From NCBI RefSeq assembly GCF_018599245.1, contig NZ_JAHEVJ010000003.1:297813-361812 (forward strand): DNA of 64,000 nt. Reading direction: 5' to 3'. Below the pieces are notes generated by a model, which was not told the DNA's origin, searched no databases, and saw only the letters and a list, made by a program, of their open reading frames with translations. This document shows positions 34,081 to 38,330 of this stretch, in pieces. The stretch is from Aliiroseovarius lamellibrachiae. Its GTDB lineage: Bacteria; Pseudomonadota; Alphaproteobacteria; Rhodobacterales; Rhodobacteraceae. The translations under genes and the position numbers were made by a program. How positions within the stretch are numbered: position 1 is the first letter of the stretch; the number at the start of each line of letters is the position of its first letter.

Positions 34081-35469
34081 TTATGCGGCGCTTTGAACAA
34101 AGGTCACAAGGTTACGCCCCTCGGCCTTTGAGGCGTAAAGCGCGCGGTCAGCACTTTGTAGCAATGCCTGGGTCTGACCGGGCTCACAGCCCCCGGTGGG
34201 GGCAACGGCAACTCCAATGGACATGGTCACCGGGATTTGTGCCGAAACCGCCCCAGAGTAAACCGGTGTTTCCCCAACCACACGGCGCAACCGTTCGGCC
34301 ATGATCAAGGCCGCGTCATGGTCGGTGTCTGGCATCGCAATCAGAAATTCTTCGCCGCCAAACCGGGCCAGAAGGTCCACATCCCGGATGCTGGCGCGCA
34401 GGCGTTTTGAGACATCGACCAACACCTCGTCCCCGGCGAAATGCCCATAGCGATCATTGATCCCTTTGAATTTGTCCAAATCCAGCAGCATAAGCGCAAA
34501 TCCGCGCCCGCTTTGGGTGGATTGGGCTTCGAGTCGATTGAGGTATGACCCCGCATAGCGGCGGTTGTACAGGCCCGTTAAAGGGTCGGTCATGGCCAAA
34601 TTTAGCCGCTGGTCCACTGTGCTGCGCACCTGATCTGACAGAAATTTACCTGGGATCAATCGGTCCAATCGAACTGAAATTTCTTCGGCATCAAAATAGC
34701 CGGACATCACCGCGTTGGCGCCAAGATCCAGGGCCATTGAGGCCGAAGGGCTGTTTTTCGTCTCATCAATGAATATGATCACCGCGTATCTCGTGGACAG
34801 TCGAGAACGCAATTCAGAGACCAAACGCAGTCCGTCGCCCTGTTCTGATAGATTGGCTGAGATAATAAACACATCGGGGACTGCGCCGGTTTGTGACACG
34901 TCTTCAAGGGCTTGCGCCTTGGTCATAACGGTCACTTTTTGGGACATTTCCTGTGTAAGTGCCTTGCGCCACATCAGGCCGGTTTCCACCGCCGGGGCGA
35001 CGAGGGCGATATTGGCTTGTTTTTGAAAGCTTGCAGGCGCTTCGCCAAATCCCATTTCCTCGGCCAAAACATGGCGGCGGGTGACTTCGTCACGCGTCGC
35101 GTGAACGCGCATTAGGTTCCTCACCATGGCGAGCAATGTGCTTTCATCCAGTGGCTTTGTTAAGAAATCATCGGCCCCGACGCGCAAGGCGGCTAAGCGA
35201 TCGGCGCGATCTGCCACTGGCGAAATGATCACCACAGGGATGGCGGCAAGTGCGGGGATGGCTTTAAGGCGACGACACGCCTCGACCCCGCCGCCACCTT
35301 GCAGCGTTTGCCCCAGTAAAATAAGGTCTGGCTGTTGGGAATGCGCGATGTCGACAACATCAGAAACAGACACCGCTTGCGTCACGTCGTAACATGCAGT
35401 GGTGAGTTTCACCTTTAACACGATGCGATTTGTCGCCACGTCGTCCGCTATGAGAATGCGTCCTGACAT
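34081..35469 (-). CDS. pleD: PleD-like diguanylate cyclase with degenerate receivers
   Basis: A 462-residue protein with two receiver-like domains (about 1-125 and 150-275) and a C-terminal GGDEF domain (about 295-460). The cyclase is intact: FGGEEF is present, preceded by the RDVD product-inhibition site five residues upstream. In the first receiver the acidic pair D9/D10 and the KPLDE lysine are present, but the phospho-acceptor position is Gly53 (LILLGQTLQ). The second receiver also lacks the Asp. It should therefore make c-di-GMP without the usual phosphorylation switch. It is divergent from the DUF3572 gene, a common neighbour. Confidence 0.9.
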   Translation of the reverse strand: MSGRILIADDVATNRIVLKVKLTTACYDVTQAVSVSDVVDIAHSQQPDLILLGQTLQGGGGVEACRRLKAIPALAAIPVVIISPVADRADRLAALRVGADDFLTKPLDESTLLAMVRNLMRVHATRDEVTRRHVLAEEMGFGEAPASFQKQANIALVAPAVETGLMWRKALTQEMSQKVTVMTKAQALEDVSQTGAVPDVFIISANLSEQGDGLRLVSELRSRLSTRYAVIIFIDETKNSPSASMALDLGANAVMSGYFDAEEISVRLDRLIPGKFLSDQVRSTVDQRLNLAMTDPLTGLYNRRYAGSYLNRLEAQSTQSGRGFALMLLDLDKFKGINDRYGHFAGDEVLVDVSKRLRASIRDVDLLARFGGEEFLIAMPDTDHDAALIMAERLRRVVGETPVYSGAVSAQIPVTMSIGVAVAPTGGCEPGQTQALLQSADRALYASKAEGRNLVTFVQSAA

Positions 35470-36743: not shown

Positions 36744-37331
36744 ATGCACGGCTTAATTGACCGATCTTTAGAAAGTTTTTTGCGCGGAACTTATGGTGAT
36801 GAGTTTTGGATGAATCTTATTCGGGAAATTGATCCCGGCTTTGACAGTTTCGAACCGATGTTTCGGTATGATGCCATCTTGACCCAGACCGTGGTCAATC
36901 AGGCGGCGGAGTTGCTGGGGAAGACGCGCGACAATCTGCTCGAGGATTTCGGCACCTATCTTATCGTGGACACCCGATCGGAGCGGGTGCGGCGTTTGCT
37001 GCGCTTCGGTGGCGTGGATTTCACCGAATTTCTTCATTCTCTGGAGGATCTTCCAGGGCGTGCGCGATTGGCCGTACCGGATATGGATATGCCAGAAATC
37101 GAAGTGGATGAATTGTCAGAAGGGGCGTATGTGCTCTCCATTTGTCATCCTGAACCTGGTTTTGGTCATGTCATCCTGGGCGCACTACGCGCTTTGGCGG
37201 ATGATTACGGGGCGTTAGCGTTGTTGGACTATAACGGGCGCTCTGGTCAGACCGAAACCCTGTCTGTGGACCTTTTGGATATGTCACACACTGAAGGGCG
37301 CAGCTTTGATCTTGCAGCTGGGACAGGATAA
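36744..37331 (+). CDS. H-NOX-like (heme NO-binding domain) protein lacking the heme-ligand residues
   Basis: A 195-residue single-domain protein matching the H-NOX fold from its first residues (MHGLIDRSLESFL, LLEDFGTYLI near 65, LLRFGG near 85, FTEFLHSLEDLP near 93). Aligned by hand with a Shewanella H-NOX, the proximal heme His position is Pro104, and the YxSxR heme-propionate motif reads Ile133, His135, Glu137. The nearest His is H98, six residues earlier. It is followed three bases later by a diguanylate cyclase with an H-NOX-associated domain, the usual signalling partner. So the pair is kept while conventional heme binding seems lost. Confidence 0.85.
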   Translation: MHGLIDRSLESFLRGTYGDEFWMNLIREIDPGFDSFEPMFRYDAILTQTVVNQAAELLGKTRDNLLEDFGTYLIVDTRSERVRRLLRFGGVDFTEFLHSLEDLPGRARLAVPDMDMPEIEVDELSEGAYVLSICHPEPGFGHVILGALRALADDYGALALLDYNGRSGQTETLSVDLLDMSHTEGRSFDLAAGTG

Positions 37332-37334
37332 ATC

Positions 37335-38330
37335 ATGACCGCACATTTGCCAATCTCACTCAGCTTTGAGGCACTCGATTATATGATGCCGATGAGCCTG
37401 GTCCTGAATTCCAATGGCGTTGTGACGCACGTCGGGCCGACCCTTCGCAAAGTCCTGCCGGGGAAAGTGCTGGAAGGCACCAGCGTCTTTCGCCTTGTCG
37501 AAATGCGTCGTCCGAAAAAACTGACCAGCATCGATCAGGTGCGGGAGTTTAACGGTGCAAAACTCTACCTGCGTATTCGTGATACCCATTCTACCCCTTT
37601 GATTGGCACAATGACCTGCCTTCCGGGCAGTGAGGGGGTGTTGCTAAATCTGTCTTTTGGGATCTCAGTGGTTGAAGCCGTGGGGCGTTATGGATTGGCT
37701 GGATCTGATTTTGCGCCAACAGATTTGACCGTTGAAATGCTCTATCTGGTCGAAGCAAAGTCCGCTGCGATGGAAGCCACCAACCAAATGGCGCACCGTT
37801 TTCTGGGGGCAAAGACCGAAGCCGAGGCCGAGGCCCTGTCAGACGAACTGACTGGGCTAAAGAATCGGCGCGCTCTTGATCAGGTTTTGTCACGATTTCT
37901 GGCGGGTAAAAATCGCTTTGCCCTGATGCATCTCGATCTGGATTTTTTTAAGGCTGTAAATGACACGTTGGGGCACGCGGCTGGTGATAAGGTCTTGCAG
38001 GAGGTGGCGAGGATTTTGACGGAAGAAACCCGAGAGGGGGACACCGTGGCGCGGGTTGGTGGTGATGAATTTGTCTTGGTTATGAAGGGTCTTACAGATC
38101 AGGTGCGGCTTTCAGCCATTGCACAACGGATGATTGACAAACTCGAAGTGCCCATAACATTTCGCGACGATCTGTGCCAAATCTCTGCAAGTATCGGGAT
38201 GGTCTCAAGCTCGGATTATGCCGAGCCAAATGCTGATCAGATGATGGATGACGCAGATGTGGCCCTGTACGCATCCAAAAAACGGGGGCGCGCCTGTTAT
38301 ACGATTTACACACCCGATCTTCGCGAATGA
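37335..38330 (+). CDS. Diguanylate cyclase with an H-NOX-associated (HNOBA/PAS-like) domain
   Basis: A 331-residue protein. Residues about 8-115 form a PAS-like domain resembling the H-NOX-associated domain (MPMSLVLNSNGVVTHVGPTL start). A helical linker (about 130-170) leads into a GGDEF domain (about 170-325) with DLTGLKNRRALD, the metal segment LDLDFFKAVND and intact VGGDEF. REGD five residues before GGDEF is the product-inhibition site. There is no EAL domain. It should make c-di-GMP under control of the adjacent H-NOX-like protein, probably by direct contact. Confidence 0.9.
   Translation: MTAHLPISLSFEALDYMMPMSLVLNSNGVVTHVGPTLRKVLPGKVLEGTSVFRLVEMRRPKKLTSIDQVREFNGAKLYLRIRDTHSTPLIGTMTCLPGSEGVLLNLSFGISVVEAVGRYGLAGSDFAPTDLTVEMLYLVEAKSAAMEATNQMAHRFLGAKTEAEAEALSDELTGLKNRRALDQVLSRFLAGKNRFALMHLDLDFFKAVNDTLGHAAGDKVLQEVARILTEETREGDTVARVGGDEFVLVMKGLTDQVRLSAIAQRMIDKLEVPITFRDDLCQISASIGMVSSSDYAEPNADQMMDDADVALYASKKRGRACYTIYTPDLRE

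Follow-up and report, generated by a model that had tools for sequence, protein, structure and literature searches.

An H-NOX-like protein lacking the canonical heme-site residues, paired with an HNOBA-GGDEF diguanylate cyclase and putatively acting as its heme-independent regulatory subunit

The H-NOX-like protein encoded in the window, the 64,000-nucleotide stretch of Aliiroseovarius lamellibrachiae DNA analysed here, matches the HNOB profile and has the H-NOX fold. Alignments by two programs agreed in placing Pro104 at the proximal-His column and I133, H135 and E137 at the columns of the YxSxR motif. Loss of the heme-ligand and propionate residues had been claimed in a sequence-only reading of this DNA and was confirmed; that reading had missed that the trait belongs to a published group. 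Judged from the relatives, heme-site loss is the usual state of this large group and not a peculiarity of the window protein. We consider it somewhat probable that the protein is a Group 5-type H-NOX fold whose canonical heme site is unused and which works as a regulatory subunit dedicated to the adjoining HNOBA-GGDEF cyclase, probably as a brake. The heme-independent part of this reading is held because the residues are lost, the ligand column varies freely and a new set of residues is conserved. The features concerned are collected in Table 1.

Table 1. Features of the H-NOX-like/cyclase pair and related loci (window positions unless a locus is named; counts refer to the 142 family rows)
Feature	Position	Strand	Remarks
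PleD-like REC-GGDEF gene	34081-35469	-	378.6 bits, NCBIfam cut-off 474
Putative Group 5-type H-NOX-like protein, HNOB domain, 195 aa	36744..37331	+	P104, I133/H135/E137
E67 D68 codons, acidic pair	36942..36947	+	E67 141/142, D68 140/142
R83 R84 L85 L86 R87 codons, Arg motif	36990..37004	+	R83 139, R84 137, R87 142 of 142
P104 codon, former proximal heme His column	37053..37055	+	P 103, H 17, other 22 (n=142)
R106 codon	37059..37061	+	141/142
Codons 133-137 (I C H P E), former YxSxR propionate motif	37140..37154	+	Y+S+R together 0/142
R149, D153, D154 and Y155 codons	37188..37208	+	135, 141, 137, 140 of 142
HNOBA (PAS-like) - long helix - GGDEF diguanylate cyclase (predicted), 331 aa	37335..38330	+	GGDEF motif and RxxD I-site
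Possible fusion in L139, 549 codons	L139:131-1777	-	HNOB, HNOBA (16.1 bits, under cut-off), GGDEF
HNOBA-like neighbour in L147	L147:1713-3020	+	18.4 bits, under cut-off; no GGDEF recognised
Cytochrome d1-type (nirS-like) genes	G000:C16:267850-283158		~3 kb from a GGDEF+EAL frame

The published group is Group 5 of Lee-Lopez and Yukl, a sequence cluster seeded with the Paracoccus denitrificans H-NOX, in which fewer than 10% of members keep the proximal His and most have Pro (PMC8738867). The available text of that study describes no conserved Cys and calls signal sensing by the group an open question (PMC8738867). The window protein fits Group 5 as described: it shares the Pro for His, the lack of a conserved Cys, the retained glycine columns and the GGDEF neighbour, and comparison by description and alignment found no difference. 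The share of His in our family rows (17/142, 12%, in a biased sample) is near the published figure. A P. denitrificans homologue is 38.9% identical to the window protein over 144 aa, and the protein of another strain of that species (L177) has Pro and all ten of the conserved residues described below. Kumar and Spiro likewise reported P. denitrificans and Rhodobacter sphaeroides H-NOX proteins without the His (PMC5588039).

Among 390 genomes drawn from the order, HNOB was matched in 319 and the window protein in 317; the best E-value in the latter search was ≤1.2e-20 in 312, and the weaker matches came from five genomes (G003, G028, G324, G330 and G349). The window and 176 loci, 177 records in all, gave 173 distinct proteins, which cover part of the 312 genomes and were aligned with Alr2278. 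After additions, and with a fragment (L190) and repeats of places already present (L181-L184 and L186) dropped, the final alignment held 183 rows, 142 from the window family and 41 canonical. Sampling was biased, since the canonical rows are mostly top HNOB scorers and the family rows mostly top matches to the window protein, and the 142/41 split was made on the ten-residue motif score itself; rows under the cut all retain H, Y, S and R, and none of those over it has YSR complete. The loss of functional residues would suit pseudogene decay or an artefact of alignment. Either is extremely improbable and already contradicted: the frame is intact, as the sequence-only reading had stated, dN/dS is ~0.045, which shows that the gene is under purifying selection, the strong matches span 312 genomes, and two programs agree on the columns.

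The four heme-site columns were read across the aligned homologues, a check of the kind that the sequence-only reading had proposed. Pro predominated at column 104, and only remnants of YxSxR were found in the family (Y133 in 6, S135 in 34 and R137 in 8 of 142), while H, Y, S and R were all kept in 41/41 canonical rows. Ranked by entropy, columns 104, 133, 135 and 137 stood at 82, 122, 169 and 194 of 195. Within the window's own genus, the five genomes drawn carried P (window), H (G012/L039), R (G051/L038), K (G384/L080) and K (G233/L086) at column 104, inside an otherwise fixed LEDL-x-GRA stretch; the L086 protein is identical to the Aliiroseovarius halocynthiae record L036. For the family rows, 13 switches between H and non-H were required at this column in a 183-row tree and 11 in an 82-row tree. 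Thus, going by the alignment, the free variation at column 104 has the look of a residue without a ligand role. The glycines G70 (141/142) and G146 (142/142), which we take to be the H-NOX hinge glycines, were kept.

The heme and NO function ascribed to the Dinoroseobacter shibae H-NOX reportedly goes back to an original study by Bedrunka et al. in 2018. In reviews, this single H-NOX is presented as sensing NO through heme and inhibiting Dgc1 (PMC8846402, PMC7232146), which is the main evidence against our favoured reading. On its account we keep, as a rather unlikely alternative, that heme is still bound through packing or a different residue and that NO is sensed to inhibit the cyclase. The same alternative draws on the nirS-like genes of the window's own genome, which may make NO, and on the 17/142 rows that retain His104, 12 of them with the full ten-residue motif, a retention that also speaks against a heme-independent subunit. 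Further, Y and K persist at the ends of YxSxR in one lineage, and three of its proteins (L127, L129 and L139) also have His. However, no replacement ligand is conserved: H98, present in 79/142 relatives, and H135, in 13/142, were both put forward by the sequence-only reading and found no support, and C133 occurs in 70/142 and is Ile in the window protein. E137 occupies the position of the propionate-binding Arg, and the mixture of P, H, R and K within one genus also stands against a heme ligand at column 104. The D. shibae H-NOX probably belongs to the window family; if it is without His104, either it binds heme in an unusual way or the heme claim needs checking. In the lineage of L127, L129, L131 and L136-L139, the motif is whole or partial and some members keep His104 or the Y and K of YxSxR; these proteins are possible intermediates between the heme and heme-less states.

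A redox sensor based on Cys and zinc would have a precedent in the heme-free H-NOX signalling of Vibrio cholerae (PMC7108781). It is hardly credible here and already contradicted, since the window protein has one Cys and none of the three-Cys zinc site of the V. cholerae type, and no Cys is conserved in the family, where the best Cys column is 133; the available description of Group 5 agrees (PMC8738867).

What is conserved instead is a near-invariant charged and aromatic set, E67, D68, R83, R84, R87, R106, R149, D153, D154 and Y155, which in these alignments takes the place of the heme site as what the family conserves. Scored out of ten, the set reached 0-2 in 41/41 canonical rows and 8-10 in 139/142 family rows, the rest being L170 with 4 and L136 and L137 with 6 each. 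All ten residues were among the 21 least variable of the 195 columns by entropy, and they sit in predicted helices (62-75, 77-86, 93-110 and 140-155) and in the loop after 86. In the H-NOX literature available to us, where the motif is not directly searchable, this set was not met. R83, R149 and D154 were lost together in L136/L137 and in L170, which hints at one network, the events being too few to count. In the sGC beta subunit, Asp102 and Asp106 of helix F flank the proximal His105 and contact an Arg and a Lys of the PAS domain (PMC11201058); by analogy with these contacts, an interface with HNOBA is plausible here. That the motif is a plain need of any pairing with HNOBA-GGDEF was rejected, since six canonical H-NOX proteins so paired have 1-2 of the ten.

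In a quick tree of the 183 rows, all 142 family rows fell together, with L170 outermost and unsupported and SH-aLRT values of 55 and 99 at the nodes after it. In the careful 82-row tree, which leaves out L170 and L192, a 7-member lineage was separated from the other family members by canonical rows (bootstrap 96, SH-aLRT 73). An AU test of one clade was marginal and did not reject it (p 0.0598). A single clade of motif-bearing proteins is therefore not proven. In a draw of 385 genomes at class level, in which ≤8 candidates per genome were scored with the family profile, matches came from 12 genomes, five of the window's own taxonomic family and 7 of 380 others. All 7 outside matches were H-NOX proteins bearing the His and YxSxR, and thus the motif family is confined, in this draw, to the window's own taxonomic family. 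A contig scan for near relatives found five only.

The pairing with a diguanylate cyclase, also reported in the sequence-only reading, proved real. Three bases separate the two genes of the window, and HNOBA-GGDEF lies directly downstream in 140/142 family loci, with GGDEF in 140/140 of these partners, which shows that the pairing is near-obligatory. The window partner carries REGD...GGDEF, and thus bears an active-cyclase signature from which cyclase activity is predicted; a profile search found no EAL domain in it. The RxxD I-site is kept in the family partners (R in 138/140, D in 140/140), unlike in the six canonical partners, where the R is absent from all six and the D from five. Among the canonical loci, HNOBA-GGDEF is next in 6/40, and a seventh has GGDEF without HNOBA. 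These six H-NOX proteins keep the His and YSR; an HNOBA-GGDEF partner thus also occurs beside heme-type H-NOX. In L139, all three domains lie in one frame, possibly a natural fusion unless a draft-assembly error removed a stop. The regulator in L147, beside an HNOBA-like neighbour, may have outlived the cyclase domain.

Near-obligatory pairing and a fusion would also be expected of a locked constitutive subunit that receives no input and sets the activity or stability of the cyclase by stoichiometry. Such a subunit would resemble sGC alpha, whose heme-less H-NOX domain provides a precedent (PMC11201058). We think this improbable, because a structural role alone leaves ten new near-invariant residues unexplained and because the six canonical proteins with the same kind of partner have just one or two of them.

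The D. shibae hnox gene is reported to be under CtrA control (PMC7232146). A CtrA-type TTAA-N7-TTAA site was found upstream of 0/139 family loci with enough sequence (shuffle mean 0.175) and of 0/34 canonical loci. The PleD-like gene lies ~1.3 kb from the pair, and two of the five GGDEF genes of the own genome are in the short stretch that holds both. The nirS-like genes of this genome may supply NO next to a c-di-GMP enzyme; a search for a Cu-type nitrite reductase gave no match over the cut-off.

Compared with known systems, the window protein differs from canonical heme H-NOX such as Nostoc Alr2278 in having neither the proximal His nor YxSxR and in having its own residue set. The H-NOX domain of sGC alpha is similar in its lack of a coordinating His and its association with a PAS-like domain and a cyclase (PMC11201058), but the window protein is a separate polypeptide and lacks the pocket-filling N-terminal extension: its M1 aligns with M1 of Alr2278. 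The H-NOX genes of Legionella and Shewanella woodyi are likewise paired with a GGDEF enzyme (PMC8738867, PMC8846402); their products are described as NO sensors with a DGC/PDE partner, whereas no EAL was found in the window partner. Our search for literature joining HNOB, Rhodobacterales and c-di-GMP found none.

In heme H-NOX proteins, NO breaks the Fe-His bond and thereby frees helix F. Applying this general knowledge to our favoured reading of a heme-independent subunit, we infer that helix F, without the His, would never be tethered, and that the resting state would resemble the NO-bound one. In that state the protein, docked on HNOBA and its signalling helix, would by default hold c-di-GMP synthesis down. 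Any tuning of this brake would come from a non-gas cue or a partner, read by E67-D68, R83-R84-R87, R106, R149 and D153-D154-Y155. The direction of the effect is suggested by the P. denitrificans work (PMC5588039) and by L. pneumophila and D. shibae, where NO-bound H-NOX is reported to inhibit the DGC (PMC8846402). A later study did not detect c-di-GMP in P. denitrificans and so lends the brake no direct support there (PMC12582929); the authors of the earlier P. denitrificans work, aware of the missing His, still propose both an H-NOX-dependent and an H-NOX-independent NO pathway (PMC5588039). More tentatively, this H-NOX lineage may have given up gas sensing and been rebuilt around an invariant Arg/Asp/Tyr set that reads a non-gas signal to gate c-di-GMP synthesis. 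An anionic metabolite, a nucleotide or a partner protein might, with equal caution, be named as that signal.

Pro at the ligand column was already known (PMC8738867), and by alignment the window protein joins that known group. What this analysis adds is the absence of an intact propionate motif from all aligned family members, the near-invariant set, the variation within one genus and the pairing counts. The available texts on P. denitrificans and D. shibae still treat such H-NOX proteins as NO sensors; inside a single genus, P, H, R and K all occur at the ligand position, which argues against a heme ligand there. The ten residues offer concrete mutational targets for the stated open question of how Group 5 proteins sense their signal. 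If true, the non-gas reading would cover a lineage found in most sampled genomes of the window's bacterial family. If the heme-independent reading is right, NO does not work a c-di-GMP switch that is widespread in these bacteria.
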